Positions 3,501-35,583 of a stretch of 38,214 nt of DNA are shown piece after piece; position 1 is the first letter of the stretch, and every line of letters starts with the position of its first letter. Both the position numbers and the translations under genes were made by a program. The DNA is taken from contig JAGVMN010000023.1 of assembly GCA_020053795.1 (NCBI GenBank), forward strand, positions 1 through 38,214, in the 5' to 3' direction. The notes under the pieces are model-generated. The model was not told where the DNA came from, ran no database searches, and saw only the letters and a list, made by a program, of their open reading frames with translations. This stretch comes from Bacteroidia bacterium (GTDB lineage Bacteria > Bacteroidota > Bacteroidia > NS11-12g > UBA9320).

Positions 3501-6500
3501 TTCTTGTGAACAGTTTTTATACTCAAGTTCTTTTAAATGCTCCTGATACAGCAGGACTTCATTTTGATTCATCCATTCAAATAAAAGTCAATGGAGATAT
3601 TTCATTTTTTGATCTCGATAGTGACAACTTGGAGGAAATCATTTATGGTAATACCGTTTTTCAAAATCAACAGATACATATCAATATTTATTCTAAGGTA
3701 GAATGGTTAAGTTTGTTGACAGGGAGACTACCATATGAAATTGAACCAACAGTGTTATATGCTGAGAACAAAGATTCATTCTCCAAAATTGAAACAATTT
3801 GGGTAGAAAATCCCGGTAATTCTCCTGTTCTTTTGGAATCTATTCAAGGTTCGGACGACATAAAGGTTTCTGACAGCATGAATATGTCCAATCCGAAATT
3901 TCCTCTTCAGATTAATTCAAGGGACACGATCAAGTTGTATCTCCGCTTTAATAAAAACTTGACCAAATACGGAATTAGTGATACACTGACCTTTAAATTT
4001 AACAATTACCAACATCCTATATCTAAGGAGATAAAAATTAGGTTAAAGAACCCACCCCAAATAGATAGCATTACGCCAACAATGGCCAGCCCGGGTGATA
4101 CTCTAATCATTTTCGGTTCCAATTTCCGTAATCACAATCCGAGTTTGTCAGTGGTTAGGATAGACCATACCCCGGCTGAAATAGTCATGGGCAGCGACAC
4201 CTTGTTGAAGGTGATTGTCCCAAAAAAAATAGCGAGGGGTTATGTAACTGTTGTTGACACCATCAATCATCTAAGGGCTCAATCGGGTCAACTATTTTAT
4301 CCTGTTTTTAAGGGTAAAGGAGGGAAGATCAATCCAAACTATTTTTACATCGACACAATATTCAGACGAAAAGTGGTATCCTATGACCAGGGTAATGCAT
4401 GGCCCACAACAGAACTGCAACTTATAGACCTCGATTACAATGGAAAGTTGGATTTAATTGGTATGAAGTATGGAGCTACTTCACTTTCATTGGACGCATA
4501 CTTGGATTTGTGTTTAATAAAGGATGAATATAGCTTGACGAAACCTTTATTTTTAGGATCAGGGATTGTGGCAAGTAAAAATAAACCGCGATATCGGCCA
4601 GGAAATATCCATGGGAATGGATTTGTTGATTTTCTTTTTTTAGATTATGGCAGTCCTTGTAACTCAAACCCAGGATATTGCACAAACGGAACAGCAGTCA
4701 CCAACGGAAGCCATATAATCGATTATGAAAAATCCGCCATTCAAAGTCGTTTTTTGTATCCTTACTCAAATCGTTATGATCAAAGAGGGGGAGCAACAAA
4801 TACGCAAGGTGATTTCAATGGCGATGGAATAACTGAAACCGTTTATAGAACAGACTCATCCTTTATTTTTGAGTCTTATTCCGATGAATATTTGGTTGAA
4901 CATTATACCCAATCATATGGCACAGGTGTTTTATTGGATGTGGTTCATTCAACCAAGGATACCATTCTTGGTCTTCCTAAATTTTCTGGTACACTTGAGT
5001 CAGTTGATATTGACGGTGATAATCGCATTGATATAGTAGATGGGGGAATTATCTATCTGAACAAATCAACAAAGGATTCTTTCATTTTTGAACCCCACAC
5101 CGATTTATTCGATAGTATCACAGCTTGTAAGGGTAGTGTTGCCTATACGATTCCTTTTTTTATAGCTGATCTGAACAACGATCGGAAAGTGGATTTTATG
5201 TTAAAAGACGTCAATTTTTGCTCCATGTCTGATTCTTCAATGACAGTGTTTGTAAATGAGTCTTCACCTGGTAAAATTAAATTCAAAAAGAAGGAAGCTA
5301 TTTTTGGATGGAAACTCATTGATCAGCTTTATTCGGCGGATTTTAACGGTGACGGGTTGCTGGATATCTATACCCAAGGTAGAAGAAATTCCAAAAACCT
5401 TTGCGACTCCTTGTTTATGTTCACCAATAGAACGGATAGTGTTATGAAGTTTGAGGTGTCTGTATTTAAGCATCACTCATTTTTTTCAATTGTTGAGCCT
5501 AAAGATATCAATGGAGATATGAGACCAGATATAGCTTTATACTCGACTGAAAATGACACTCAAAAAATAATCTATTTATTGAATCAGGATTTGGCAGCTG
5601 CATTTTCCAATAATCACGTCGCCTTTGCAACCCCAATTGGTTCGCAAGAGTCAAAAGTGGTTTACTTCAAAAACACCGGTGGTGAAGCATTCATGATAGA
5701 TAGCATCACCAAATCTTCACATAATCCCCATTTAAGCATTTCAGTTTCCGGAAATAACTTTGGCAAGCAATCAATGACTTATGATGAGTCCCTGAGCTTC
5801 ACAATTAAATTCGATTCCAGGACTATTGGAACTATAAATGACACCATCTGGATACATACTAATTTCTCGAAAAAGGCATTTTTATTGAGCATAGAAGCCA
5901 CAACCTTGCCCTGGCCAAAATTACTTTCAGATGCAGATACAATTTATTTTGGGAAGGTGGCTGTTAATGACTCTCTGGTTATTCCCTATACCATCTACAA
6001 TGTGGGGAGTGATACGCTGTACATTAGCTCACAAACGAATATTGTCCCCAATTTTATCAAAAGAGGTTTCATCAAAAACATTATTCCTCATAATGATTCA
6101 CTGACAGGATATATTGCTTTTATACCTGCAAGGAAAGCTCAGCAATCAACTACAGAGTTTATTTATCACAACGCCCTTTCTCAGAAAATATCACTCACCT
6201 TTTTTGGCGACGGTATTAGTCCTGTGATTACGAACAAGATATTGCGAAATCTGGATTCGATCAGAACTGGAACGTGGAAACGGGATTCATTTTTCATTTA
6301 TAATACTGGTAATGATACTTTAAAAATTACGTCGGTAACGGCGTCATCCAAATTAAAATCATTCACATTCCCAAATGTGATTTTGGGCGGAGATAGTGGA
6401 TTGATAAGCTACGAAGCAACTTCTGATTCTATTGGAAATTTTAGCGAAACGTTGCGAATAAATCACAATTACTATGAAGACACCCAAACATTGGTTAGCG

Positions 6501-10987: not shown

Positions 10988-13900
10988 ATGAAACTTCAAA
11001 AAAAAATTCTGCCTTTTATCCTCATTGCTTTGACTAATTTTTGCTTTTCTCAGGTCAATTATTTAGGCAGTGGCCTTTATGCTGGATCAGCACCTTTTCT
11101 CAGAACAGTTTCTAATAGCACCACTACTAATGGAACCATTATTTTGAGAGACACCGCTGGCGGATCAATTAATACCAACATTTGGTCACGACCCGTGGCA
11201 TTGCCGTTTTCATTTAATTTTTATGGGGTCTCTGAAAGTTATTTCTGTGTCAGCAAAAACGGTTTGCTTACATTTGATACTACAGTTAACTACACAACAG
11301 TTAACAGTAACCTCAACAACAATACAAAGCTGCCGAACAACAATCTTCCGTATCGTTCCATTGCGTGGTATTGGGGAGATTTTAATGGCATCTCAAGTGG
11401 TGATCATGTTTATACATACACCCATGGATCATCACCCAACAGGCAATTTTATATTCAAACGTACTCCTATAAAATGGATGCCCTCTCTTTTACATACAAT
11501 TTTCTGGTGCTTGAAGAAAGCACTAACCGTATTTACATGATTGATGGCTACAATTCAACAGCAGTGTCAGGAACCTTCACTGTGGGGGTACAGCAAAATT
11601 CGGTCAATGCAATTCAGATCAGTGGATCACCGAATTTACCATTGTATAATACGTCATCAGCCATAACCGATGATGACTACTATCTCTTTTCCCCATTCGA
11701 TGTTCCGTTTAACGATGCCGGTATTGAGTCTATTGACACCCCGCTTTTGCAGCCATGTACACTTTCAAGAATAGCTGTCACTCTTGAAAACAAGGGAAAG
11801 GATACATTGAAAAAAGCCGATATTGTCGTATTGATTAACAGTGGTATGTCGGCAATAAGCTGGACAGGGAACCTTGCTCCAAACAGCACAATACAGGTCA
11901 GTCTGGGTACCTTTACTTTTAATTCTGGTGACACACTTGCCATTTGGACGGAAAAACCAAATGGAATAGTTGACTCTTTTACATACAATGACACGATGAG
12001 GAGAATAGTTTATCAGGCCATGGCCGGAACCTACACTATAGGTGTATCTGGAAATTATTCCCGTTTCAATGCCGCCGCAACTGCATTATTGAACAGAGGT
12101 GTATGTGGTCATGTCACTTTTATTGTTGATCCAAGCAGTGGCCCATACAATGAACAAGTGGTTTTTGGTGCCATCGGAGGAGTAGGTCCTAATGCCACAG
12201 TCAAATTCAGAGGCCAAAATACGACCCTGATATTTGCTCCAACCGTTTCTGCTGATCGGTTTGTAATCAAATTGGACGGCACCGATTATTTCACTTTTGA
12301 CAGCTTGAATATTGTCGTTGACACCACATCTGCAACTTATGGTTGGTGTGTCAATCTGACCAATGGTTCTGATCACAACACTATTTCGAATTGTAAGCTT
12401 CTGACGTCATATACCAATACCACCGCGGGCAGTTTTGCCGGAATTGTATTGTCGGGGAGTACGACTTCGGCAACCACAGCTACCAGCGGAGATTACAATA
12501 CCATTATAAACAATATGATTTCAGGCGGCTATTACAGCATCACCATGGTAGGCAGTTCGGCAAATCCCTTGCATGGTAACCAACTTATTGGAAATCAAAT
12601 CAGCGATTTCTATATGTATGGATCTTACCTATCCTATCAGGATAGTGCCATTGTCAGAGGAAATGATGTTTCGAGACCATACCGGACAACTCTGACAACC
12701 GGTTACAGCCTATACTTTGCCAATCCGAGTAATAGAATGCTGATCGAAAAAAACAAAGTGCATGATCTTTATACCAAAGAGACTACCTCAACTTCATCTG
12801 CTTATGGTATATATCTTACCAGTGCTGATGCTGATTCTTCAACACCCAATGTTATTGCCAATAATATCATCTACAATTTGAAAAGCAATGGTACTATTTA
12901 CGGCTTTTACAATTCCGGAAGTGCCGGGGCCCATTATTATTTCAATACCGTTTCTTTGGATGATGCCAATGCAACGGCGGGAATTACCCGAGGATTTTAT
13001 CAGACGTCTTTGGCAATTAACCTCAAATTCAAGAACAACAATATTTCGATCAGGCGAGGTGGAAGCGGAGTCAAATATGCCATTTATCTTTCAACTTCAA
13101 CCACGGAAATAGAGTCTGACAACAACAACCTTTATCTTAATTCTGCCGGTAGTGGTTCACAGAATGTGGGATATTACAATGCCAACGATTATTCTACACT
13201 TGCAAATTGGCAAACGGCAAACGGCGGTATTTATGATGCAAAGAGTGTCAACGTCAACCCTCTTTTTGAGAATTTAGGTGCCAATAATCTGAAACCAAAA
13301 GCAGCTACCCTTAATAATATCGGGACACCGATAACAGGTCTCAGCACCGATTTTAACGAAATCACACGAGACAGCACCAATCCTGACCCCGGGGCTTTTG
13401 AATTCACGCCACCGCCTTATGATGCAGGTATTACTGCCCTTGTGAATCCGGTAGGTCAATGTGCTGGAACAACTCTTGTAAGTGTGAAGGTTAAGAATTT
13501 CGGTTCGGTTTCTCTGGATAGCCTCAAAGTATTCTGGACAATTGATGACACTTTACAAGCCGTTTATCAAATGGCAGATTCCATTCAATCGGGCAAAGAA
13601 CAGACGGTGATTCTTGGCAATATGACTTTAGTGGAAGGAGTTTTCAAAACTTTGAAAATATGGAGCAGTGAGCCAAACGGTTTTAACGACATAGCTAACT
13701 CCAATGATACATTAAAAGTTTATGGTATCACCGCGGCCATGAAGGGTACTTTCAGCATTGGATCAGGCAAAACTTACGGCACTTTCTCTTCGGCAGTCTC
13801 AGATTTGAAAATGAAAGGCGTTTGCGGACCCGTGGTTTTCGATATAGACTCATCCATTTACAACGAGCAGATTGAAATAACGTATCTCGATGGATCCAGT

Positions 13901-16900
13901 TCAGCTAATACCATTACTTTCAAAGGAAATGGAGCTACTGTCAGATTTGCCCCAACCAATACCAACGACCGTCACATCATCAGACTCAACGGTGCTGATT
14001 ATCTTATATTTGAAAACCTCAATATTCTTTTAGATACCAGCATATCCTCTAATTACGGATGGACTTTGCAGATGGGAAATGGCTCCAATTACAACAAATT
14101 TCTGAGTTGCAGGTTTATGAGTTCCCTTACCTCGACCAGTAGCAATTATTCTACCATCGTAGCCACCGGAAGTAATACTGCTTTTTCGGCTACCTCAGTC
14201 AGCCACAACCTCTTTCAAAACTGCAGTATAACAGGAGGTTATTATGGTTTAAGACTTTCCGGAAACAATGGAGCAGAGGCCTACAACAACCAGGTCATCA
14301 ATTGTACCATCAAAGATTTTTACATTTATGGCTTATACATGGACAGCAATGACAGCACGCTCTTAAAAGGCAACGACATCAATCGTTATAACCGGACCGG
14401 AAGTACTTTCTACGGGATATATAATACCGGCTCAACTAACTCCATAATAGAAAACAACAAAATACACAATAGTCATGATTATTCAACCAGCACTACCGCT
14501 GCTTATGGTATTTATTTCACCGCTGCCGATTCGGATACGGGAAGAGAGAATAACGTGATAAACAACCTGATATACAATTTGAACAACAACAGTACAATTT
14601 ATGGTATTTACAATTCGTCCAGCAATGGTGTACACTATTATTACAACACAGTTTCTCTTGATGATCAAAACGCGACAGCCGGTATTACGAGAGGATTTTA
14701 TCAGTTGACTGCTGCCACAAACATCGTTTTCAAAAATAATATTATCTCCATAACAAGGGGTGGCGACGGTGTCAAACATGCGTTGTATTTTGGCACAAAT
14801 ACGTCAAGCATAACCTCAGACTACAACGATTTGTATGTTGATTCAAAAGGCAGTGGGACTCAATCGGTTGGCTATTATGGCGGCGATTTTACCACCCTCG
14901 CCAACTGGCAAACCGCCAACAGCAGTGCCTATGACATTAACAGCAAAGCTCAAAATCCGATTTTCTCTGATCTCCCCAAAGAGGAACTCATTCCATCGTC
15001 AAGTTCAATTAATAATGCCGGAACACCAATTACCGGTATCACGAAAGATTTTGCCAATAACATAAGAGACAGTTTAAAACCGGATATGGGAGCTTTTGAA
15101 TTTAATCCTCCGGCGAATGACGTGAGGATAAAGGCACTGATTGCACCAATGGGAGGCGGATGTGGAGATACCGGGATATCTGTTACCGTTAGCATTGCCA
15201 ACCTCGGTTTAAACTTGCAAACAGCCGTTCCGGTGACGGTTGAAATTTCCGGACCAATAAATGTTAAGCTCACCGGAATATCTTATGACAGTTTATTATC
15301 GGCTTCCGAAAGTATATTTACCATGCCTGAAACCATTTCCACCACAAGTGGAGGAATCTTTTATGTAAAGGCCTACACATTGCTTGCTGCAGATTCTAAG
15401 AAATTCAACGACACCCTGTTTACTTCATTTGAATTTGGTGCAAAAACCAGCCCACCTACCACTACATCGGCTGAAAGATGCGGACCTGGAACGGTAACTC
15501 TCAAGGCAAGCGGAAGCAGTACCTTAAGGTGGTTTTATACAGACACTTCGGCAACATCTTTTTTAACCGACTCTGTTTTTACTGCAAACTTGTCTGCCAC
15601 AAAAACATATTATGTGCAAGCCAACGAGTCCTCGAGAAATAGAATCTCAACTCTTTATACCGGAACGACTTCAACTTTTACCGGTAACTATTTTAACATT
15701 CAGCCCAATAAGAATCTGGTCATTGACAGTTTTGATATTAATACCTCGGCAACATCTTCTATTGATGTGGCTGTTTACTATAAACAAGGAACATACGTAG
15801 GTAGCGAGACAAATGCCTCAGCCTGGACACTGGCCGATTCAGTTAAGGTAATTGGTACAGGAACCGGCAACCAGACAAGAATAGGCGTGAAACAATTCAC
15901 CCTTTACAGTGGTCAGACTTATGGAATTTTCATTGTTATTTCGTCAGGAGGGAATATAGTTTATTCGTCAACAGGTAACAACTTCACCAACAATGATATG
16001 ACGCTGATAGCCGGTGCCGGAATCAATGGAGTCTTCACAGGATCTTTAGTTAGCCCGCGGACCTGGAACGGAACCATTTACTATTCGGCAGAAAACTGCC
16101 CTAGCTTCAGGACTCCCGTCACTGCTATTATTAACCCAATACCCGATGTAACCATCGCTCCAAATGGGCCAACAACATTCTGTCAGGGAAAAGGGGTCGA
16201 AATATCGGTGCCCGTGAGTTCGCTAAACTCTTATCAATGGAGACTCGACGGTCAAAATATAATGGGAGCTAATGCTGCTTCTTACACGGCCTTCAACAGC
16301 GGCAATTACAGTGTTGGTATTTTGAGCAATAAAGGTTGTTCAAACTTATCAGGGAATATTGCCATCAATGCAGTGGCCAATCCGCCTGCAGTTACTTTTC
16401 CGCAAGGAAACCAAAGTATCTGTGCCAATGAAATAATGACCCTTACGGCAAACAGCGGTACCGGACTCCAACATCAGTGGTTAAAGGATGGCAGCAATAT
16501 ATTAGGTGACACCAATGCCATCTTCAAAACCAATCAGGCTGGAACATATTCTGTAAAAATTAACAACGACCTTGGTTGTACGTCCTTGTCAGACAGTGTA
16601 ATCCTGAAAGTAAATGCCGTTCCCGTGCCTGAAAATATTGCCCCTCAGTCTGTCTGCAAATGGCAAGATGCCGTTTTTAGTGGTGCCGATTCCACGCTCA
16701 TTTACCTTTGGTACAATTTGGAAGTAGATGGTAATTTATTATCTGATGAACGAACTTTAACGATTAAATCTATGCAACAAAGCGATTCGGTTTACCTTTC
16801 TGTTTCAGACGGAGTTTGCCAAAGTTCGAGAACCATGGTGATCGCTGAGGTAAAACCCTTACCTGAATTGGCTGTTGTCAGAGACACGATTCTTTGTGAA

Positions 16901-18109
16901 GGGACTTTTGCCACCCTCAATGCCAGTTACACTTCAGGCTCTGCCATCTGGTTTGACGCCCCCACAGGCGGGAATATTATTGGTACAGGAGCGGCGTTTA
17001 ACACAGGGATTTTGCAGAATACGACGAAATTTTATGTGCAGACCGAATTGAATGGCTGTACAAGTGTTTCACGCACCAAGGCTGAGGTATTGGTTCATGC
17101 TTTGCCGGAAACACCCATTGCTTTTGACACATCTTTTTGTTTTGGAAACATGGCTAACCTGTTTGCTCAAAGCCCTTCGAAAGTCAGGTGGTTCAAAGAG
17201 CCAACTTCAAAAACACCCCTATTTGAGGGAACGACATTCAGAATTAACAACATGATCCAGTCAGATACTTTCTACATAGATGGATATGCCAATGGCTGTG
17301 CCAGCCAAAAACGACAAAGAATTATTGTTTCTCCTATAACATTGCCTGCAAAACCTATAGTGAACAACACGGCAGCCTGTGAAGGTGATGCAACATCTAT
17401 TGCTGCCACTGCTCCAATCGGATTGATTGAGTGGTATGAAAAGCCAGAAGGAGGAATGCCGCTCGGAACCGGAAGTACTTTTTCAATTCCATCCCTGACC
17501 AAAACGATGGTTCTCTTTGCGGGAGTGAATGATGGTAAATGCAACAGCGAAAGGCAGGAAGCTTTTGCCTTGAAAAATGAAAAACCTGATGCCGGATTTT
17601 CCCTTACGCTTACCGTAGGACCCAGACTTCACTTTGAAGTGAACCAACCGCAACCAGGAATACAATATTTCTGGGATTTCGGAGATGGAAGTCAGGGAAG
17701 TGGTGACAGTGTCACCCATACCTACCCTGCCAATGGAATCATGAAGGTGAAACTCAGTGCAGTCAATCCGGTTACTTTTTGTTTCGACAGTACCACGTCT
17801 GATATTAACATTATAACAACCGGTGTCAATGATTTTGATAAAAACCTTACGGCATACAATGTGTTTCCTAACCCTTATCGCGGAACCGCTTACATTGCCT
17901 ATCAGTTAGTTAAGAATACAAATGTCAAACTGGAAGTTTTTGACTTAGTAGGTAAACTCATTGCCGAAATTCTTGATGAGAAACAAGCTCCGGGATCTTT
18001 TACCTATACCTTGAAAACAAACGGCCAATCAAGTGAAGGGATTTATTTTGTACGTTTTACCGTGGATGGACAATCAAGAACCATTAAAGTGATTGATTTG
18101 GGGAGGTGA
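10988..18109 (+). CDS. Giant T9SS-secreted protein with duplicated CARDB-like/beta-helix modules, Ig-like and PKD domains (2373 aa)
   Basis: A probable cell-surface or released protein of unknown role. The signal peptide is residues 1-22 (MKLQKKILPFILIALTNFCFSQ). A beta-sandwich-like domain with an FSFNFYGVSESYF region fills ~23-240. A CARDB-like domain (~243-345) and a right-handed beta-helix region (~347-806, many N-N-x-I rungs, ending GAFEF) follow. The same pair recurs at ~811-919 and 920-1372, again ending GAFEF. A third CARDB-like domain is at ~1376-1475. Ig-like domains occupy ~1485-2220, interrupted at ~1555-1705 by another beta-rich domain. A PKD domain (FWDFGDGSQGSGD) is near 2230. 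The T9SS type A tail is ~2289-2373 (VFPNPYRG, LEVFDLVGKLIAEI, GIYFVRF). Beta-helices of this kind often bind or cleave polysaccharide, but no catalytic residues could be assigned. Confidence 0.9.
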   Translation: MKLQKKILPFILIALTNFCFSQVNYLGSGLYAGSAPFLRTVSNSTTTNGTIILRDTAGGSINTNIWSRPVALPFSFNFYGVSESYFCVSKNGLLTFDTTVNYTTVNSNLNNNTKLPNNNLPYRSIAWYWGDFNGISSGDHVYTYTHGSSPNRQFYIQTYSYKMDALSFTYNFLVLEESTNRIYMIDGYNSTAVSGTFTVGVQQNSVNAIQISGSPNLPLYNTSSAITDDDYYLFSPFDVPFNDAGIESIDTPLLQPCTLSRIAVTLENKGKDTLKKADIVVLINSGMSAISWTGNLAPNSTIQVSLGTFTFNSGDTLAIWTEKPNGIVDSFTYNDTMRRIVYQAMAGTYTIGVSGNYSRFNAAATALLNRGVCGHVTFIVDPSSGPYNEQVVFGAIGGVGPNATVKFRGQNTTLIFAPTVSADRFVIKLDGTDYFTFDSLNIVVDTTSATYGWCVNLTNGSDHNTISNCKLLTSYTNTTAGSFAGIVLSGSTTSATTATSGDYNTIINNMISGGYYSITMVGSSANPLHGNQLIGNQISDFYMYGSYLSYQDSAIVRGNDVSRPYRTTLTTGYSLYFANPSNRMLIEKNKVHDLYTKETTSTSSAYGIYLTSADADSSTPNVIANNIIYNLKSNGTIYGFYNSGSAGAHYYFNTVSLDDANATAGITRGFYQTSLAINLKFKNNNISIRRGGSGVKYAIYLSTSTTEIESDNNNLYLNSAGSGSQNVGYYNANDYSTLANWQTANGGIYDAKSVNVNPLFENLGANNLKPKAATLNNIGTPITGLSTDFNEITRDSTNPDPGAFEFTPPPYDAGITALVNPVGQCAGTTLVSVKVKNFGSVSLDSLKVFWTIDDTLQAVYQMADSIQSGKEQTVILGNMTLVEGVFKTLKIWSSEPNGFNDIANSNDTLKVYGITAAMKGTFSIGSGKTYGTFSSAVSDLKMKGVCGPVVFDIDSSIYNEQIEITYLDGSSSANTITFKGNGATVRFAPTNTNDRHIIRLNGADYLIFENLNILLDTSISSNYGWTLQMGNGSNYNKFLSCRFMSSLTSTSSNYSTIVATGSNTAFSATSVSHNLFQNCSITGGYYGLRLSGNNGAEAYNNQVINCTIKDFYIYGLYMDSNDSTLLKGNDINRYNRTGSTFYGIYNTGSTNSIIENNKIHNSHDYSTSTTAAYGIYFTAADSDTGRENNVINNLIYNLNNNSTIYGIYNSSSNGVHYYYNTVSLDDQNATAGITRGFYQLTAATNIVFKNNIISITRGGDGVKHALYFGTNTSSITSDYNDLYVDSKGSGTQSVGYYGGDFTTLANWQTANSSAYDINSKAQNPIFSDLPKEELIPSSSSINNAGTPITGITKDFANNIRDSLKPDMGAFEFNPPANDVRIKALIAPMGGGCGDTGISVTVSIANLGLNLQTAVPVTVEISGPINVKLTGISYDSLLSASESIFTMPETISTTSGGIFYVKAYTLLAADSKKFNDTLFTSFEFGAKTSPPTTTSAERCGPGTVTLKASGSSTLRWFYTDTSATSFLTDSVFTANLSATKTYYVQANESSRNRISTLYTGTTSTFTGNYFNIQPNKNLVIDSFDINTSATSSIDVAVYYKQGTYVGSETNASAWTLADSVKVIGTGTGNQTRIGVKQFTLYSGQTYGIFIVISSGGNIVYSSTGNNFTNNDMTLIAGAGINGVFTGSLVSPRTWNGTIYYSAENCPSFRTPVTAIINPIPDVTIAPNGPTTFCQGKGVEISVPVSSLNSYQWRLDGQNIMGANAASYTAFNSGNYSVGILSNKGCSNLSGNIAINAVANPPAVTFPQGNQSICANEIMTLTANSGTGLQHQWLKDGSNILGDTNAIFKTNQAGTYSVKINNDLGCTSLSDSVILKVNAVPVPENIAPQSVCKWQDAVFSGADSTLIYLWYNLEVDGNLLSDERTLTIKSMQQSDSVYLSVSDGVCQSSRTMVIAEVKPLPELAVVRDTILCEGTFATLNASYTSGSAIWFDAPTGGNIIGTGAAFNTGILQNTTKFYVQTELNGCTSVSRTKAEVLVHALPETPIAFDTSFCFGNMANLFAQSPSKVRWFKEPTSKTPLFEGTTFRINNMIQSDTFYIDGYANGCASQKRQRIIVSPITLPAKPIVNNTAACEGDATSIAATAPIGLIEWYEKPEGGMPLGTGSTFSIPSLTKTMVLFAGVNDGKCNSERQEAFALKNEKPDAGFSLTLTVGPRLHFEVNQPQPGIQYFWDFGDGSQGSGDSVTHTYPANGIMKVKLSAVNPVTFCFDSTTSDINIITTGVNDFDKNLTAYNVFPNPYRGTAYIAYQLVKNTNVKLEVFDLVGKLIAEILDEKQAPGSFTYTLKTNGQSSEGIYFVRFTVDGQSRTIKVIDLGR

Positions 18110-25044: not shown

Positions 25045-25142
25045 GTTAATAATTACCAATTAATTACCGCTATAATTTTATTTTGTCAAAACAAATATGC
25101 TTTTTTGAAATATACTACCTGTCAGCTAAAATTAACTCAATT

Positions 25143-27206
25143 ATGTCAGTCAGAAGTTTTAATATTTTGGGATACGCAATATTACTTTTCTTTGGTTGTA
25201 AGAGAAAGGAAATGGCAGAATGGCCTTTAAATGTTTTAACGCCACTGGTTCAGACAGAGCTTGGATTAAATGACTTGGTAGCTGATAGCATGCTGATCAG
25301 CAACACAGACGGTTCTTATAACCTGGTTTACGACTACGAGCAATTGCTTGACAGTTTTGGCGATTACCTTGAAATTCCGGATACCATCAGCTCGGTTTCC
25401 ATGTCATTGAACAAACTTATTCTTGAAGACCGGAATATGGTTGACACTATCCCATTAAAAGAGATCATGCCGGCCAGTGTTTTCTTGGATGGCAAAATGG
25501 TACAATTGGAAGCACAGGATATAACTAACAGTTCGGGAAAACAAGAGATAGATATCTCCGAAGCCTTTTTCCGGAAGGCCAAATTTTTGAAAGGCCAAAT
25601 GGAGATAAGCATTTATAATGATTTACCTGTGGAAATTGAATTGATTATTTTTAAACTCTCCAATAAAAATAATGGGACTATAATAGCTCTGGACACCTTT
25701 TTTAACGTCAAACCCGGCAACTCGGATTACAAATTAATTTCACTGGCCGGAAAGGAAATAGATGGCATTCTGATAGGAGAACTGATACGGGTGAAAACGC
25801 TTGAAAGTCCGGGACCTGTTTTGATCGAATCAAACAAAGGCATCCGGGTAGAACTTAAGGTGACGGGTTTGGAACCTGAGTATGCTACTGCCATTTTCCC
25901 ATCGCAAAACCTGATTGAAAACTCAGAAGAAGTTACATATAATTTTAAAGGTCCTCAAATAACCGTTCTGAAAATTCGAACCGGATTTGTAAAAATGAAG
26001 GTTATAAATACGATTCAGGAACGTATTATCCTGACTTATAAGCTACCCAATAGCCGTTATGATGATCAACCAAATACGGCGGTTGTGCTGGAACTAATAG
26101 TACCTGCTGCATCTCCCGGTAAGCCAACTTTTGTTGAGAAACTCTTTCCAATAAATAAGTACGTAATTGATTATAACGGAAAGGATCGCATTTTGCCTCC
26201 GCACTTTAATACCATTTACAGCGAGCTTTCAGCCAGAATGGAAGCCTCCGGCATAGAAAGAAATTTGTCTTTGGGTGACAGTGTGTTTATTCAATTTGGC
26301 ATGGTAGATATCGTTCCTGAATTTGTTATCGGTGATTTTGGCTTAAAGACTTTTTCCATCAACGAATCAAATCCAATACCCGCATTCAAAAATATCAATG
26401 GTACGATAAGTCTCGAAGATATCAATGTGATACTGAGTTTCGAAAACACATTTGGTATAGAAGCCAATATAGATATTATAGAAATTAACGGATTCAACAG
26501 TCGCACCGGAAAATCAGCCAGGATTATTAGTTCGGAATTGGATCAAACAATAAATCTGAAAAGGGCTTATAGTTTACCTTTAAGGCCAGCTTTTAATATC
26601 AAAAAACTAACACCAACAAATTCTACGGTAAAAACATTTGTGGAAAATTTATCTGATGTCATTTATACCAAATTCAATATTACCAGCCGACCATATGGGA
26701 GTAAAGATTTTACCGACTTTGTTTTTCAGGACAGTTATCTCAAAGCCAAATTGTCTTTGAATATGCCCGTTACTTTTGGAGCAGAAGGCCTGCAATTAAC
26801 GCAAAAAAAAAGTTGGAAACCCGTTACTCCTGACGGGCAATTCAAAAAGATAAAAACCGGAAATCTAAAGCTTTGGATTTCTAATGAATTCCCGCTGGCC
26901 GCCAAAATTCAAATAGAATTTCTGGATTCGAAAGGGGCCATATTGACCACTTTATTTCAAGATGGAAACTGGGGTGAAGTGATTGCTGCTGATGTTTCCA
27001 CAGGTGCTGGTAGAACAACGGGTTCGTCTTCAACCTTGATTCCGGTTAATGTCAACGAAACCAAAATGAAATTGATTAAGTCATCAATTAATTATAGCGT
27101 AAAAGTGATTTTTGATACCCCCGGTTCACTTCGATATAAAATTTTCAATACCTACAAGATGAAGGTAAAAATTACTGGCGATTTTGTTTATGATCAAAGT
27201 TTGTAG
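25143..27206 (+). CDS. Large putative lipoprotein of unknown function (687 aa)
   Basis: I choose the ATG at 25143 (MSVRSFNILGYAILLFFGC), because the longer TTG-started frame (25083) would hide a signal. The segment ends in FFGCKRKEM; the Cys could be a lipidation site with a relaxed lipobox (Phe-Gly before Cys), so lipoprotein status is probable, not certain. The remainder is beta-rich, with repeated short segments such as LKAKLSLNMPVTFGAEGL and KIQIEFLDSKGAIL, and is not related to any domain I can name. It overlaps the next gene by 17 bp (start at 27190), so the two are probably translationally coupled and may form an outer-membrane complex. The divergent thiN promoter region lies in the 98-bp gap upstream. 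Confidence 0.72.
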   Translation: MSVRSFNILGYAILLFFGCKRKEMAEWPLNVLTPLVQTELGLNDLVADSMLISNTDGSYNLVYDYEQLLDSFGDYLEIPDTISSVSMSLNKLILEDRNMVDTIPLKEIMPASVFLDGKMVQLEAQDITNSSGKQEIDISEAFFRKAKFLKGQMEISIYNDLPVEIELIIFKLSNKNNGTIIALDTFFNVKPGNSDYKLISLAGKEIDGILIGELIRVKTLESPGPVLIESNKGIRVELKVTGLEPEYATAIFPSQNLIENSEEVTYNFKGPQITVLKIRTGFVKMKVINTIQERIILTYKLPNSRYDDQPNTAVVLELIVPAASPGKPTFVEKLFPINKYVIDYNGKDRILPPHFNTIYSELSARMEASGIERNLSLGDSVFIQFGMVDIVPEFVIGDFGLKTFSINESNPIPAFKNINGTISLEDINVILSFENTFGIEANIDIIEINGFNSRTGKSARIISSELDQTINLKRAYSLPLRPAFNIKKLTPTNSTVKTFVENLSDVIYTKFNITSRPYGSKDFTDFVFQDSYLKAKLSLNMPVTFGAEGLQLTQKKSWKPVTPDGQFKKIKTGNLKLWISNEFPLAAKIQIEFLDSKGAILTTLFQDGNWGEVIAADVSTGAGRTTGSSSTLIPVNVNETKMKLIKSSINYSVKVIFDTPGSLRYKIFNTYKMKVKITGDFVYDQSL

Positions 27207-28458
27207 GGTAGTTTTTATTTTGTTGTGGTCTTCCATGGCATTTGCTCAGACTGATTCCATCTGGAAAGAAAAAGCGGGTTTCGATATTTTGCCAAATGAC
27301 CTTTTTTTGGGAAATAACCAGTCCAATTTATTAGAGATGAATGGATCATCAAGACTTACAACTTCTCATTTGAACATGAAATTCATAAGGAACTTTTATA
27401 ATGGTGGCCGATTGGCCGATAACATCATAAATACAAATTCTGACAACCTTGATAGAAGAAACCGCTTCGGATTTGAAAATGATTACTCTGTCAATTGGAT
27501 GACATTCCGTGATGCAAAAATTGATTCGACTAAGAAGGTTCATTTTTCAACCGGATATAAGAGCCTTTTTACCGGACAATATGGAAAAGATGCCTTTCTG
27601 CTCTTTATGAAGGGAAACGCAGCATTTGCTGGCAAGTCGGCTAACCTGTCACACATCGGATTGAGAAGCATGGAATGGATATACTTAGGAGCCGGGACGG
27701 TTAAACTCAATGTTGGCAAAAATAATAAAACGATCTTTTCTTTGAACGGCCAACTGGTATTGAGCGGCAATAATTTCTTTTTAAATACATGGGGAAAGAC
27801 AGGAATTTACACTGATACTTTTGGAAGATTTTTAAATGTAGATGCAACCGGATCCTGGACCGCATCCCAGAATAGACCTTCAGGGTTGGGAGCTACATTT
27901 TCTCTAAGATATGCTTCAATGATTAGTAAGCAAGTATCATTTAACATTGGGTTCGAAGATGCCGGCCCGGTGATGCCCTTTAAAAATTCCAAAGGAAATA
28001 GTTTTGACACCTCTTTTGTTTTTGAAGGCTTTTATCTATACAACCTCAACAAAATCAGCGATCCTGATTATTGGGAAAGCAAAACAGATAGTTTGATTAC
28101 TCCATTGACCACGGACGACGGCAAGCAGATTCTGGGTTTAATGCCCGCCCGGATATTTGGTTCATTAACACTGATGCAATCAGAAAAGTCTTATTGGAGC
28201 CTTGCAGTTTCGTATCGTTTTGGGGTGTTTGCTATACCTTTAATTCAGGTCTCAAACCAGTTTTTACTCAAACCTTCCTTTCTTGTGCAAAGCTCTATTG
28301 GATATGGTGGTTGGGGTGCTCTTCAGTGGGAAGAGCGTTTTATCATTCAAAAAGGGCGATGGGCTGGTCAACTATCCTTACAGGGAATACACACCTTGCT
28401 AATCAAAAAATTGCCCGGGCAGGTTGGCTTACAATGTGGGGTAAGTAGAAGACTGTAA
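27190..28458 (+). CDS. Outer-membrane beta-barrel-like protein, DUF5723-like (422 aa)
   Basis: The ATG at 27190 ([20 protein letters not shown]) gives a clear signal peptide, cleaved after AFA or AFAQ; a TTG six bases upstream is not needed. The mature protein alternates hydrophobic and polar residues in many short beta strands with a Gly/Asn/aromatic bias, for example [20 protein letters not shown] and [20 protein letters not shown]. The segments [11 protein letters not shown] and [16 protein letters not shown] resemble Bacteroidota barrels grouped as DUF5723; this match is from memory and moderate. Function is unknown. It starts inside the lipoprotein gene. Its 3' end overlaps the convergent glyA by 30 bp. 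Confidence 0.72.
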
Positions 28459-29987: not shown

Positions 29988-32900
29988 ATGATTGAGATGA
30001 GGATAAACATACTTAAAATGGCTGCTATCAAACACCTTAGAAAAGGTATTTTGCTTTTTTTCTTTTCACCGGTATTCCATATTTTTGGACAAGGCGTTGC
30101 CATCAATCCAACGGGTGCTGATCCCGACAATTCAGCCATGCTGGACGTTCAGTCTTTCAACCGCGGCCTTTTGGTTCCCAGAATGAGCAAATTTCAAAGA
30201 TTGAGTATTCCGCTGCCAGCTAACAGCCTTTTGGTTTACCAGTTGGATGATACCATAGGATTTTGGTTTTATGATAAAACTGCCTGGGTTCCTGTATTTC
30301 GATTCTTAAATGCCGGAACCGGCCTCAGTGGTGGTACTATTTATTCTTACGGAACAATCTCTATCGCTAATTCAGGGGTCAAACCGGGTGTTTATGGAGC
30401 CAGGGATTCTATTCCGCAGTTTTTAGTTAACGCTCAAGGACAACTCGTTTTTGCAGGTAATATTTCTATCAGCGAAAAAGACAGCATCATAGGGAATGAA
30501 GTCACCGACACATTGAATGCACTTGGAATGTTGCAGCGTTTTGGCAATGGAACCGATGTTTCTCCATTGAAAATCGGAGTTAATCCGGGTCTAAGACTAA
30601 ATGACGTTTGGATGTGGGATGGCAACAATTGGATTTCTGGTGTGTTACCCCCTGAAAAGGACAGTATCATAGGAAATGAAATTACAGATGTAGCTCAGGG
30701 AAGAGGAATACTTTCACGGACAGGAACCGGAACAAGTTTAGACCCTCTTCGGCTGGTCATTGCCGGCGGTGCTAATATCGGTGATGTTTGGACATGGAAT
30801 GGCTCCCAATGGATGGCATCAGCTCTACCCCCGATACCACCGCCTCCACCGGAAAAAGACAGTGTCATAGGAAATGAAATAACAGATGTTTCACAGGGCA
30901 GAGGAATTTTATTCAGAACCGGGGCAGGAACAGCAGCCAGTCCTTTTACTCTTCAAATCACTGCAGGAACAAATATTGGTAACGTCCTAATGTGGGATGG
31001 AACACAATGGGTTCCCTCTACCATTCTAATTCCTTTGGAAAAAGACAGTGTCATAGGCAATGAGGTAACTGATACCATGAATGCCCTTGGTTTTATGACC
31101 AGATTTGGAAATGGAACGGTGGCAAGTCCTTATAAAATTGGCGTTAATCCGGGACAAAACCAGAATGATGTGTTGACTTGGAACGGCAACAATTGGGTGT
31201 CGGTACCCATGTTAATTGAAAAAGACAGTGTTATTGGAAATGAAGTAACTGATACCTTGAATTCGAGAGGAGTTTTGGTAAAATATGGCAACGGAACTAC
31301 CGGTAACCCTTATAAAATTGGTGTCCAACCGGGCCTTAATCAAGGAGACGTGATGACTTGGAACGGCACTCAATGGATTTCTTCTATCGTTAAAAAGGAA
31401 AAAGACAGTGTGATAGGAAATGAAATGGCCGATACGTTAAATGCCTTTGGATTTTTAAACCGTTATGGAGGAGGTACTGACGTCAGCCCATATAAGGTTG
31501 GGGTATTACCCGGAATTAATCCCGGAGATGTTTTGACATGGGACGGAGTAAAATGGGTTTCGTCCATAGTTAGTAAAGAAAAGGATAGTGTAATTGGGAA
31601 TGAAGTGAAAGATACCATGAATGCATTGGGGATTTTGGTAAAATATGGAAACGGAACAGATGCAAATCCCTATAAAATTGGCGTTCAACCCGGTATAAAT
31701 TATGGAGATGTCATGACCTGGAACGGATCTATATGGGTTTCCGGTGCTCTTCCTCTTGAAAAGGACAGCATTGTTGGAAATGAAGTAACAGATACCATTG
31801 CGAACGGATTTCTTCAAAAAACGGGTTCAGGAATTTATGCAGATCCATATAAGATTGGTTTAAAAAATGGCAAACTCCCCGGACATGTTTTAAGATGGAA
31901 TGGTACGCAATGGATCAGTGATTCATTAAAAGGGAATACGTTGGACATGTCTTATGATGAAGGTGGACCCGGAAACGGAAGAATCATTATTGCCGATGCC
32001 GGAGCGGTTGAAATAAACGGAACCGACGGTTTGATTTCAACAGGCAATTTTGGTCTTGGTCAAAGCATCGGCAGTCCGGGGGCTGGAACCCGTATGTTTT
32101 GGAATCCTGCCAAAGCCTCATTTCGGGCGGGATTTGTTGATGGTAGTCATTGGAATGTTGGAAATGTTGGAAATTATTCTACTGCCTTCGGGCGTAATAA
32201 CACCGCTTCAGGATTGCATTCATTTGTAGCAGGAAACAACAGCCGGGCCTCCGGAATTAATTCATTTGTGATAGGCGACAGTTCTGAGGCTTTGGGTGGA
32301 AGTTCTTTTTCATTCGGAGAAAAAAATACATCTTCGAGTTTGAATACAATGTCTATTGGTTCTGCGAACATCTCCTCGGGGCAGTATGCAATGAGCATTG
32401 GTTCCGAGAATCTGACAACAGGCGTGCATTCAATTGCCATCGGTCATCAGAATATGTCAAGGAATTTATACTCAATTGCCATTGGGTACCTCGATTCAGC
32501 AGGTGCCGATTATTCAACTGCAATCGGTTATAGGTGTAAAACAAGTGGTTTACAAGGGGCCATTGCAATGGGTTATATTACCAGTGCTACTAACCCTTAT
32601 GCTGTTGCCATTGGATATAACGTACATGCCACGGCAGATCAATCCTATGCCATTGGGAGTTTTGTAGAAACCAACAACAAAAATGGTTCAATGGTTTTTG
32701 GCGACGCCTCTACTACTACCCCAACGACCAGTTTGAACCAAAATCAAATGACGATGCGTTTTAACAGTGGTTATCGTTTGTTCTCCAACAGTACATTAAC
32801 CACCGGAGTTTATATGAATGGCGGTGTAAGTGGATGGACAAACTATTCTGATGTCAACATGAAAGAGAATTTTGAAGAACTGAATGGAGAGGAGATTTTG

Positions 32901-33263
32901 CAAAAGATAAAAGACCTTTCGGTAACCCGCTGGAATTATAAGAACACAGATGAGTCAATAGAATATATAGGTCCTATGGCTCAGGATTTCTACAAAGCAT
33001 TTAGATTGGGTGGCACCGATAGTTTAGGAATAAATTCAATAGCCATTGACGGGGTGAATATGGCCGCTATAAAAGCTTTGATTGTAAGGACTGATGAACT
33101 GAAAGAGGCTCAGGAAAAGCTTCTGAAAACGCAAACCACCATAGAGGAGCAGCAAAAACAACTGAATGATATTCAGGCGGAGTTAGAAGCCTTGAAAAAG
33201 CAGGTACACGAGATTCAGCCTAACAAATCGGGTTTAAAAAGATTTCACAGGAAAGGAAATTGA
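29988..33263 (+). CDS. Tail-fibre-like surface adhesin: eight 60-residue repeats, YadA-head-like region, S74 chaperone domain (1091 aa)
   Basis: AGAGGAA lies 7-13 nt before the ATG at 29988; ATGs at 29997 and 30018 remain possible starts. The signal segment is MAAIKHLRKGILLFFFSPV, then VAINPTGADPDNSAMLDVQS, the N-terminal module common in Bacteroidota tail-fibre-domain proteins. Eight tandem units start with EKDS at residues 163, 223, 289, 351, 411, 471, 531 and 591; each has the core GNE-x-x-D, later GNGT and W-x-G-x-x-W. Residues ~725-905 hold YadA/Hep_Hag-like heptad units (SIAIGHQN, STAIGY, AVAIGYN). The S74 domain contains YSDVNMKENF: Ser954, Asp955 and Lys959 match the Ser-Asp-x3-Lys self-cleavage site of phage endosialidase chaperones. 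A coiled coil follows (~1025-1075). No T9SS tail is present. Trimerisation and self-cleavage are inferred from the family. Confidence 0.87.
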   Translation: MIEMRINILKMAAIKHLRKGILLFFFSPVFHIFGQGVAINPTGADPDNSAMLDVQSFNRGLLVPRMSKFQRLSIPLPANSLLVYQLDDTIGFWFYDKTAWVPVFRFLNAGTGLSGGTIYSYGTISIANSGVKPGVYGARDSIPQFLVNAQGQLVFAGNISISEKDSIIGNEVTDTLNALGMLQRFGNGTDVSPLKIGVNPGLRLNDVWMWDGNNWISGVLPPEKDSIIGNEITDVAQGRGILSRTGTGTSLDPLRLVIAGGANIGDVWTWNGSQWMASALPPIPPPPPEKDSVIGNEITDVSQGRGILFRTGAGTAASPFTLQITAGTNIGNVLMWDGTQWVPSTILIPLEKDSVIGNEVTDTMNALGFMTRFGNGTVASPYKIGVNPGQNQNDVLTWNGNNWVSVPMLIEKDSVIGNEVTDTLNSRGVLVKYGNGTTGNPYKIGVQPGLNQGDVMTWNGTQWISSIVKKEKDSVIGNEMADTLNAFGFLNRYGGGTDVSPYKVGVLPGINPGDVLTWDGVKWVSSIVSKEKDSVIGNEVKDTMNALGILVKYGNGTDANPYKIGVQPGINYGDVMTWNGSIWVSGALPLEKDSIVGNEVTDTIANGFLQKTGSGIYADPYKIGLKNGKLPGHVLRWNGTQWISDSLKGNTLDMSYDEGGPGNGRIIIADAGAVEINGTDGLISTGNFGLGQSIGSPGAGTRMFWNPAKASFRAGFVDGSHWNVGNVGNYSTAFGRNNTASGLHSFVAGNNSRASGINSFVIGDSSEALGGSSFSFGEKNTSSSLNTMSIGSANISSGQYAMSIGSENLTTGVHSIAIGHQNMSRNLYSIAIGYLDSAGADYSTAIGYRCKTSGLQGAIAMGYITSATNPYAVAIGYNVHATADQSYAIGSFVETNNKNGSMVFGDASTTTPTTSLNQNQMTMRFNSGYRLFSNSTLTTGVYMNGGVSGWTNYSDVNMKENFEELNGEEILQKIKDLSVTRWNYKNTDESIEYIGPMAQDFYKAFRLGGTDSLGINSIAIDGVNMAAIKALIVRTDELKEAQEKLLKTQTTIEEQQKQLNDIQAELEALKKQVHEIQPNKSGLKRFHRKGN
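30474..31940 (+). repeat. Eight tandem in-frame repeats of about 180 bp
   Basis: Unit starts are at 30474, 30654, 30852, 31038, 31218, 31398, 31578 and 31758. The spacing is exactly 180 nt between units 1-2 and between all of units 4-8. Units 2 and 3 are lengthened by 18 and 6 nt; the extra six residues of unit 2 are a proline-rich linker (PPIPPPPP). Units are diverged but keep EKDS-x-x-GNE and GNGT. The array encodes part of the protein at 29988-33263. Confidence 0.93.
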
Positions 33264-33264
33264 T

Positions 33265-35583
33265 ATGCACCGGTTGAAATGGTCATCATTCATTCTCCTT
33301 TCTGCTTTGGCTACTTTGGGCAAATCTCAGGGTTTAATTAACAATGGTGCATCTATCGTTGTGAAGAACGATGCCTTTTTGGTTGTTTCCGGTAAAGCAG
33401 GAAATTTTACCAACCAGAACAACGGAACAGTCAATGTCAATGCCCGGGGTTATATCAAAATAAAAGCCAATTGGTCGAATCTGGCTAATAACAGCGTGTT
33501 TGTTTCCAATAGCGGAACAGTCATTCTATATGGGGACACTCAGTACATAGGGGGCTTTTATCCGACTGGTTTTTACAACCTCGACCTAACCGGAGGGGCA
33601 CCAAAGGTGTTGAACATTAACACTTTTGTTGGAGGAGTATATAATTACTCTCGAAATGGACGACTGATATTAAATAGTACCTTAATCCTGAATTCGAACC
33701 GATTGATCATAAACAACCCAAAACCTTCTGCCGTTTACAAAGGCATTGGATACATTATCAGCGAAACCGATCCGATCTCTGGCTATGGTACCATGCAGTG
33801 GAATATTCGAGGATCAAATAATGATTCTCTTTACATCTTCCCTTTTGGAACTCAGAACGCCACCTACATCCCAACAGTTCTAAATGTTAAAAGTGCCGGT
33901 ATTCAAATAATGGATTCAGGTTATTTGTCATTAGCCACATACCCAACGAATGCTCAATTAAATCCTAACAACAGACCATTACCTCTTGGGGTAAATAATT
34001 TTCAAAACAAATATAATGTAGAAAATGGCCCCCAGGCCCTAGACCGTTTTTGGGTGTTGGGGGGAGATCAGTTTATTACCCTGCCTGATATCGACATGGT
34101 ATTTAGTTACAGAAAAAGTGAATGGGATGCCACCAACTCTAGCACAAATACCATTTTAGGTAATGAGTTGAAGGCTGTAAAATATGATCCTACAACGCAA
34201 AAATGGCAATATCCGGGTAATGGCACCAGCGATCCGGTTCTGAACAGAGTTTATTCAGGCGGGATGAAGAATTATCTTGGCAACTGGGTTTTAAGTGAAA
34301 ATCCTTACTGCCCCATTCCCGACTTTACGACTTTAGAAAAATGCTACACGGTTCCCTTTTTTTTTAAAGACGAATCAACCATCCCCAGATTTTCGATTAC
34401 GGGTTGGACCTGGGATTTTGGTGATGGACAACTGTCATCTGTTAAGGACCCTGTTCATCGTTATGAAAACCCCGGTCTATATCCGGTTATGTTAAGGGTA
34501 TTTTCTGACAAAGGATGTGAAGACTCTGTCATTTATAATATTGAGGCTTTTACCATACCCGTGGCTGATTACGAGTATTTGGACACTTGTTACAAAACAC
34601 CTACTTCCTTCAAAAGCACTTCAACAGATTCAAAGTATCTTTTGACAAAAACAGACTGGTTTTTCTCGGACGGCACCAATTCGCAGGGAAGTTCCGTTAG
34701 TCATCAATTTGCATTTGTCGGGAATCAGTTTGCAGACCTGATCGTTGAAAACTCAAGAGGTTGTCGCGACACCATGCGTCAATCGTTTATCATACAACCG
34801 CTGCCATTTGCCAGATTTGATGTAGAACCGATTTGTGAAAACACCACTGTTGATTATACCTCCGCGTCGGGAAGTCCTTCAGGTATTATTATCGCCTATA
34901 AATGGAATTTTCACAATAGCTTCAGTTCCGATTTGAAAGATACATCTGTATTTTATTCAAAAGCGGACAATTACATCATCAAACATTGGGTGCAAAATCA
35001 ATATGGTTGCGAAGACTCAATAGAGAAACTTCTATTAGTTAAACAAAGAGCCATTGCCAACTTTGACTTTGAGCCGAAACCGGCAACAATATCAACTCCT
35101 ATTATACGATTTACGGATAAAAGTAGCAATACTTCCATCTGGGAATGGGATTTTGGTGATTTTGGATTCACGGAAAATGTTCAGAATCCGGTTCATGAGT
35201 ATAAAGATACAGGATGGTACAGGGTAATACTCATTGCTAACAATGATGTGAACTGCCCGGATACAATTATGAAACTTGTTTTCATTAAACCTGAGGTTCG
35301 GGTTTATCTTCCAAATGCATTTACACCTCAGGGATTTGACGATTTGAATTCTACCTTCAAACCTGTTGGAATTCTAAATGGCACCATTGAATACACTTTG
35401 CAGATCTTTAACCGTTGGGGAGAAATGTTGTATGAATCGGATGATATTGATAAACCATGGGATGGAACTATCAGAGATGGTAAAGTTCAATGTCAGGCCG
35501 GGGCTTATCTCTATATCATCAGACTTATGGATGTTAACCGTGAGTTACATGTATATAAAGGAACCGTTAATCTGATCAGATAA
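33265..35583 (+). CDS. Secreted PKD-repeat protein with gliding-motility-associated (CHU_C) C-terminal domain (772 aa)
   Basis: The ATG at 33265 is 1 bp after the preceding stop; GGAAAGGAA lies just upstream, so the two genes form one operon. The signal peptide is MHRLKWSSFILLSALATLGKSQ (cut near residue 22). Residues ~23-360 are beta-rich and without a named domain. Four PKD-like domains follow: WTWDFGDGQLSS, WFFSDGTNSQGSS, YKWNFHNSFSSD and WEWDFGDFGF, at about 388-680. The last ~95 residues (YLPNAFTPQGFDDLNSTF, FNRWGEMLYES, WDGTIRDGKVQCQAGAYLYI) are the type B CTD that directs T9SS export and surface anchoring. It is likely an exposed, perhaps adhesive, protein, possibly the anchor or partner of the tail-fibre-like protein. 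The last is inference. Confidence 0.92.
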   Translation: MHRLKWSSFILLSALATLGKSQGLINNGASIVVKNDAFLVVSGKAGNFTNQNNGTVNVNARGYIKIKANWSNLANNSVFVSNSGTVILYGDTQYIGGFYPTGFYNLDLTGGAPKVLNINTFVGGVYNYSRNGRLILNSTLILNSNRLIINNPKPSAVYKGIGYIISETDPISGYGTMQWNIRGSNNDSLYIFPFGTQNATYIPTVLNVKSAGIQIMDSGYLSLATYPTNAQLNPNNRPLPLGVNNFQNKYNVENGPQALDRFWVLGGDQFITLPDIDMVFSYRKSEWDATNSSTNTILGNELKAVKYDPTTQKWQYPGNGTSDPVLNRVYSGGMKNYLGNWVLSENPYCPIPDFTTLEKCYTVPFFFKDESTIPRFSITGWTWDFGDGQLSSVKDPVHRYENPGLYPVMLRVFSDKGCEDSVIYNIEAFTIPVADYEYLDTCYKTPTSFKSTSTDSKYLLTKTDWFFSDGTNSQGSSVSHQFAFVGNQFADLIVENSRGCRDTMRQSFIIQPLPFARFDVEPICENTTVDYTSASGSPSGIIIAYKWNFHNSFSSDLKDTSVFYSKADNYIIKHWVQNQYGCEDSIEKLLLVKQRAIANFDFEPKPATISTPIIRFTDKSSNTSIWEWDFGDFGFTENVQNPVHEYKDTGWYRVILIANNDVNCPDTIMKLVFIKPEVRVYLPNAFTPQGFDDLNSTFKPVGILNGTIEYTLQIFNRWGEMLYESDDIDKPWDGTIRDGKVQCQAGAYLYIIRLMDVNRELHVYKGTVNLIR

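Follow-up and report, generated by a model that had tools for sequence, protein, structure and literature searches.

The open reading frame at positions 29988-33263 on the plus strand encodes a chromosomal, non-phage fibre of 1091 residues that ends in a Peptidase_S74 domain with an intact active site. One base past its stop codon starts, on the same strand, a gene for a type IX secretion system (T9SS) type B substrate (33265-35583, 772 residues) that is found with the fibre in every relative in which this could be checked. The first-pass annotation, which is supported with regard to the chromosomal S74 fibre itself, had treated export route and anchor as open, but it overlooked this neighbouring gene. 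We consider it probable that a self-cleaving trimeric fibre is displayed together with its co-encoded T9SS partner, which would anchor or escort it. The window, i.e., the whole stretch of DNA analyzed (38,214 nucleotides), is an entire contig of a 2.3-Mb genome that is 74% complete.

According to the mechanism that we propose, the regions 29988-33263 and 33265-35583 would form one unit, both products of which would enter the periplasm by Sec, as suggested by their signal peptides. Three fibre chains would come together via their C-terminal coiled coils and S74 domains, and correct assembly would activate the Ser954/Lys959 dyad, leading to a cut at Ser954. In analogy to other members of the S74 family, this cut would free about 138 residues at the C-terminus, comprising S74 domain and coiled coil, and leave a stable trimeric fibre behind. 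The CHU_C tail of the partner would provide for its passage across the outer membrane and, together with a PorP/SprF-type carrier, hold it at the surface, while the fibre, having no export tail, would be carried out with the partner or held at the surface by it, most likely via contact between the conserved N-terminal domain of the fibre and the N-terminal region of the partner. The exposed repeats and the YadA-like head would then constitute an adhesive spike.

All elements that had been assigned to the fibre earlier, namely a signal peptide, eight repeats, YadA-head repeats and an S74 domain with S954-D955-x3-K959, were recovered within this single open reading frame. The predicted signal peptide, judged by eye, reads MRINILKMAAIKHLRKGILLFFFSPVFHIFGQ and is followed by G; orthologues, among them full-length ones at approximately 50% identity, match it with YGQ or AQ endings. 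The N-terminal domain (NTD; residues 33-166, 134 residues, 30084-30485) is conserved in all partner-linked fibres, as evident from alignments and from linkage to the partner, and a profile search returned no relative for it in the PDB. Eight repeats of about 60 residues (residues 163-650, 30474-31937), presumed to form the shaft, open with EKDS[IV][IV]GNE at residues 163, 223, 289, 351, 411, 471, 531 and 591, corresponding to spacings of 60, 66, 62, 60, 60, 60 and 60, and exhibit pairwise identities of 42-72%. They are followed by YadA-head-like repeats with a unit of about 14 residues (residues 725-905, 32160-32702; PF05658, 5.9e-12, four stretches), by the Peptidase_S74 or intramolecular chaperone core (PF13884, 32847-33002) with the codons for Ser954 and Lys959 at 32847-32849 and 32862-32864, respectively, and by a heptad-rich coiled coil (approximately residues 1016-1078, 33033-33221) that is part of the predicted released fragment. 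Besides the sequence, the coiled coil is indicated by a long helix in an otherwise poor AlphaFold model of the C-terminal 228 residues (mean pLDDT 54, about 85-91 over the best 30 residues of the helix); a model of the NTD plus two repeats is of low confidence (mean pLDDT 40). Scans with Pfam and NCBIfam profiles yielded no match to the sorting domains PF18962, PF13585, TIGR04183 and TIGR04131, so that the fibre indeed has no T9SS tail, as had been stated before. The same scans detected no family of the YadA beta-barrel anchor type, the C-terminus consisting of S74 domain and coiled coil.

The downstream partner starts with a signal-peptide-like sequence, continues with an N-terminal region of about 345 residues (33325-34359) that corresponds one-to-one with the fibre NTD according to alignment and co-occurrence in relatives, and further contains PKD domains (PKD_4, 3.4e-39). 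Its CHU_C type IX secretion signal domain (PF13585, 35308-35568) scored 55.8 bits in one scan and 52.1 bits in another (7.3e-14, cut-off 27), and TIGR04131 scored 35.7 bits (cut-off 35), pointing to export of the partner via the T9SS. PorP/SprF carriers are required by type B tails and also serve as their anchors (PMC12618676, PMC9143113). The partner has no neighboring PorP/SprF gene, i.e., it is an 'orphan' type B substrate, and the host genome encodes PorV, three PorP/SprF proteins and 25 CHU_C proteins above the cut-off. A search for SprA in the 74%-complete host genome came back empty, but was uninformative in that control genomes were equally silent. Within the window, the Bacteroidota -33/-7 promoter pattern had no match and scans for sigma-70 promoters and terminators gave results at chance level. 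The case for co-transcription of fibre and partner therefore rests on the one-base gap and on conservation.

The association of the two genes was followed in 117 relatives that were searched separately for the fibre NTD and for the N-terminal region of the partner. The searches returned 36 places for the former and 38 for the latter, making up 30 intact pairs, all on the same strand and with the partner downstream. Counted by genome, there were 33 with the NTD, 35 with the partner and 30 with both (hypergeometric probability 2e-19, a value that overstates the strength of the association given the non-independence of the lineages). More weight attaches to the absence of exceptions, the fixed order and the differing surroundings. 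All six unpaired fibres run into contig ends and seven of the eight unpaired partners either lie at a contig end or have a fibre fragment next to them at such an end. The remaining one (locus L277 in genome G047) has an S74 fragment directly upstream; here the fibre is in pieces and the order is kept. Among the 117 relatives no true counter-example to the pairing was encountered. In the fetched loci, S74 fibres with an NTD above 190 bits and with available downstream sequence were always followed by a partner homologue. Partner-linked fibres range from 581 to 1120 residues in length and reside in several different chromosomal neighborhoods, and in two relatives a second copy of the pair is present, both genes having been duplicated together (L039/L040 vs. 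L032/L034). When 395 genomes of the class were considered, the four best partner places (>400 bits) were all located beside S74 fibres, three of them next to a matching NTD and one (G002:C52) next to an S74 fragment where the contig ends. A gene of the NTD type occurred on the same strand within 7 kb of at least 22 of 92 tabulated partner places.

Genes with the same type of NTD that adjoin partner-like proteins and end without S74 were observed as well (L214, L215, L219, L237, L256, and L266), their ends being, e.g., HTH..INPDG.H.H tail-collar-like or of the '..TPMPEGFIYF..' type. On the basis of such genes, the constant part of the unit seems to consist of NTD and partner, with S74 as one of several C-terminal modules. 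Distance matrices for NTD, S74 domain and partner were also compared in search of co-evolution at an interface. The correlation between NTD and partner (r = 0.88, with L202 entering one matrix as zeros) is no higher than shared descent would give, and the comparison does not separate interface co-evolution from it.

An S74 domain in a Bacteroidota genome is not rare and the fibre is no isolated oddity: the domain was detected in 37 of 58 near relatives and in 88 of 297 genomes sampled across the Bacteroidota (about 30%). A survey of neighbors covered 121 loci with 143 S74 open reading frames. Genes for proteins with a T9SS tail were found on the same strand in 49 of 100 cases at position +1 and in 25 of 83 cases at position -1 relative to the S74 gene, compared to 3-15% (same strand) and 0-17% (other strand) at other offsets. 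Since Pfam proved more sensitive than an initial local tail profile, the main comparison uses Pfam counts. By this measure, CHU_C and Por_Secre_tail domains are encoded by 30 and 27, respectively, of 107 genes downstream of S74 genes and by 13 and 21 of 71 upstream genes, as opposed to 2 and 7 of 145 background genes from the same loci (5-6%). A Por_Secre_tail at the very end of the S74 protein itself is present in 24 of 142 cases, indicating that S74 fibres do exist as cargo of the T9SS in cis. Such a tail would leave with the S74 fragment upon cleavage, which fits a removable export tag. On the other hand, 59 of the 115 S74 genes without a tail of their own have no T9SS neighbor either, implying that other routes exist.

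Further arrangements were noted in the surveyed loci. A rhomboid-family membrane protein of 196-199 residues is encoded directly downstream of the S74 gene in four genomes (L082, L084, L086, and L089). In L033, L034, L038, L041, L043, L044, L166, and L170, the S74 gene is followed by a gene for a small protein of 139-176 residues, and several of these small proteins feature a 'QSLERQ/QSIERS'-like sequence after the signal peptide and T9SS-type-A-like tails. Tailed S74 proteins combined with giant CHU_C-type proteins of 1100-1600 residues form tandem arrays in L045 (two pairs) and L049 (three pairs) and a single pair in L168; the tails of these S74 proteins are T9SS-like, and the two kinds of protein alternate.

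As to the role of the partner, we tentatively put forward a more specific version of the proposal, in which the tail-less trimeric fibre is exported by the T9SS in trans on a dedicated, CTD-bearing partner and the S74 domain serves as an assembly check before or during export. This version is considered possible. Somewhat unlikely, in our estimation, is the competing explanation that fibre and partner are functionally related adhesins of one operon, with the partner contributing neither to transport nor to anchoring of the fibre. Passage of the fibre through the outer membrane would then follow an unrelated route and its own NTD would keep it attached, as is presumed for the MAT proteins of Bdellovibrio. 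This organism possesses surface fibres of the S74 type whose N-terminal domain measures about 130 residues, with no T9SS named for them in the available part of the report (PMC10769870). The many Bacteroidota S74 genes devoid of a T9SS neighbor agree with this explanation and co-transcription alone could explain adjacency. It accounts less well for a one-to-one pairing with a specific partner family that is free of counter-examples in 117 genomes and for pairs that duplicate together, since simple co-regulation does not require such partner specificity. Display of the fibre with the help of its partner is the reading that we favor.

That the displayed fibre would cleave itself is suggested by its S74 domain. 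Peptidase_S74 matched residues 954-1005 from profile position 1 onward (38.6 bits, cut-off 22, 1.3e-9; 44.1 bits in a genome-wide search), and this match begins with S954-D955-x3-K959, placing Ser and Lys five residues apart. A bare SDxxxK string is present in 21% of shuffled versions of the fibre protein, which makes the motif by itself weak proof. We take it as real in view of its location where the S74 profile match begins, its conservation and the matches of the C-terminal end, when used as a profile against the PDB, to MYRF (7dc3, 2.3e-5) and a phage long tail fibre (6f45, 2.1e-5). The motif is kept in all full-length orthologues of the fibre and in 138 of 143 S74 proteins from Bacteroidota, with the serine and the lysine each retained in 142 of the 143. 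S74 domains trimerize via their C-terminal coiled coil and the Ser/Lys dyad cuts only in the trimeric state (PMC8326128). In Bdellovibrio, self-cleavage at SDxxxK has been shown for the S74 surface fibre Bd3182 and is abolished by the exchange S782A (PMC10769870). By family resemblance, the fibre studied here would likewise trimerize and cleave itself, and it should lose about 138 C-terminal residues in the process. The first-pass annotation had placed the cut at the Ser-Asp bond. This bond should not be taken as fixed: the scissile bond of MYRF lies between P586 and S587 (PMC8326128), the tip of Bd3182 was traced to A781, directly before the catalytic S782 (PMC10769870), and both cases point to a position N-terminal to the serine, which may also apply to the fibre. 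Alternatively, the S74 domain might trimerize the fibre without cutting and stay on as its tip or base. In favor of this option are the low sequence similarity to solved S74 domains and the fact that the literature searched yielded no report of cleavage for a Bacteroidota member. A pure clamp, however, would not need the serine and the lysine that are so consistently preserved in the orthologues and throughout the Bacteroidota proteins, which renders this option improbable.

With regard to genomic setting, the fibre gene follows the gene for serine hydroxymethyltransferase (SHMT, glyA) in seven relatives, at about 50% identity and with unchanged number and register of repeats. Other genes in the window encode a glyA-type SHMT, IMPDH, thiamin pyrophosphokinase, a CDP-alcohol phosphatidyltransferase and large T9SS-type adhesins. 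The Pfam scan revealed no phage genes on the 38-kb contig, in agreement with the earlier description of the locus as free of them. All but one of the fibre relatives in named records are Bacteroidota metagenome-assembled genomes, and viral contigs and phages match the fibre only over short stretches. The idea that the gene is left over from a phage tail fibre or was recently captured as one, brought to mind by tail-fibre PHROG families that match the C-terminal third (5.8e-8, 6.3e-7), is highly improbable and was rejected given a contig without phage genes, a locus conserved after glyA in seven relatives, viral and phage matches confined to short stretches, and a signal peptide and T9SS partner that speak against a phage fibre.

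Several other features of the host genome deserve mention. The genes at 25083-27206 and 27184-28458 belong to no significant Pfam family and accompany the SHMT-fibre locus in relatives (the first at 35-44% identity). Beside a tRNA-Phe, 551-9244 encodes a protein of 2897 residues with FG-GAP, TIG and HYDIN/ASH Ig-like domains and a weak Por_Secre_tail, and 10988-18109 encodes a T9SS adhesin of 2373 residues with beta-helix, five Ig_7 domains, PKD and Por_Secre_tail. A second S74 protein of the host genome (L051, G000 contig C65) comprises at least 1504 residues with many 'NTAIG' repeats; it is cut by the contig end and has no T9SS neighbor downstream.

Self-cleaving S74 surface fibres have already been demonstrated in Bdellovibrio, and the fibre resembles in layout the S74 subgroup of the MAT proteins of Bdellovibrio bacteriovorus, e.g., Bd3182, which likewise have a signal peptide, a constant N-terminal domain of similar size (about 130 residues), variable shaft and tip, and a C-terminal S74 domain with SDxxxK (PMC10769870). 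Both kinds of fibre are non-phage and chromosomal, and both occur in S74 and non-S74 versions. The MAT proteins stem from another phylum and no T9SS partner is described for them, whereas the fibre features YadA-like repeats and a dedicated gene for a T9SS type B partner. What the constant N-terminal domain of MAT proteins binds at the surface is unidentified according to the authors (PMC10769870). Phage S74 tail fibres and endosialidases (K1F endoNF, T5 L-shaped fibre) have the C-terminal chaperone, the Ser/Lys dyad and the subsequent coiled coil in common with the fibre, which, unlike them, is no virion component, possesses a signal peptide and has no phage genes nearby. MYRF shares the S74/ICA domain by profile (7dc3, 2.3e-5) and exhibits trimer-dependent Ser/Lys self-cleavage, but is a eukaryotic membrane transcription factor. 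YadA_head repeats are shared with trimeric autotransporter adhesins (YadA, type Vc), from which the fibre differs by having S74 in place of the YadA beta-barrel anchor. T9SS type B substrates with PorP/SprF carriers such as SprB/SprF (PMC12618676, PMC9143113) resemble the partner in their CHU_C/TIGR04131 tail; in contrast to these, the partner adjoins the fibre gene instead of a PorP/SprF gene, and the fibre itself is tail-less.

Taken by itself, an S74 fibre is of a known kind, and what is new compared to known S74 fibres is the constant T9SS partner. A paper linking S74 fibres to the T9SS was not found in the openly licensed literature. Genetics here names a candidate for the holder or carrier of an S74 fibre, a T9SS type B protein that is inseparable from the fibre in the genomes examined. 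If the proposal is true, the T9SS displays cargo without a sorting signal of its own, which would help to make sense of the 'tail fibre domain' genes of Bacteroidota, a large and so far unexplained class. Should export in trans prove correct, the pair would represent a general strategy of Bacteroidota for displaying phage-like fibres by means of two genes.
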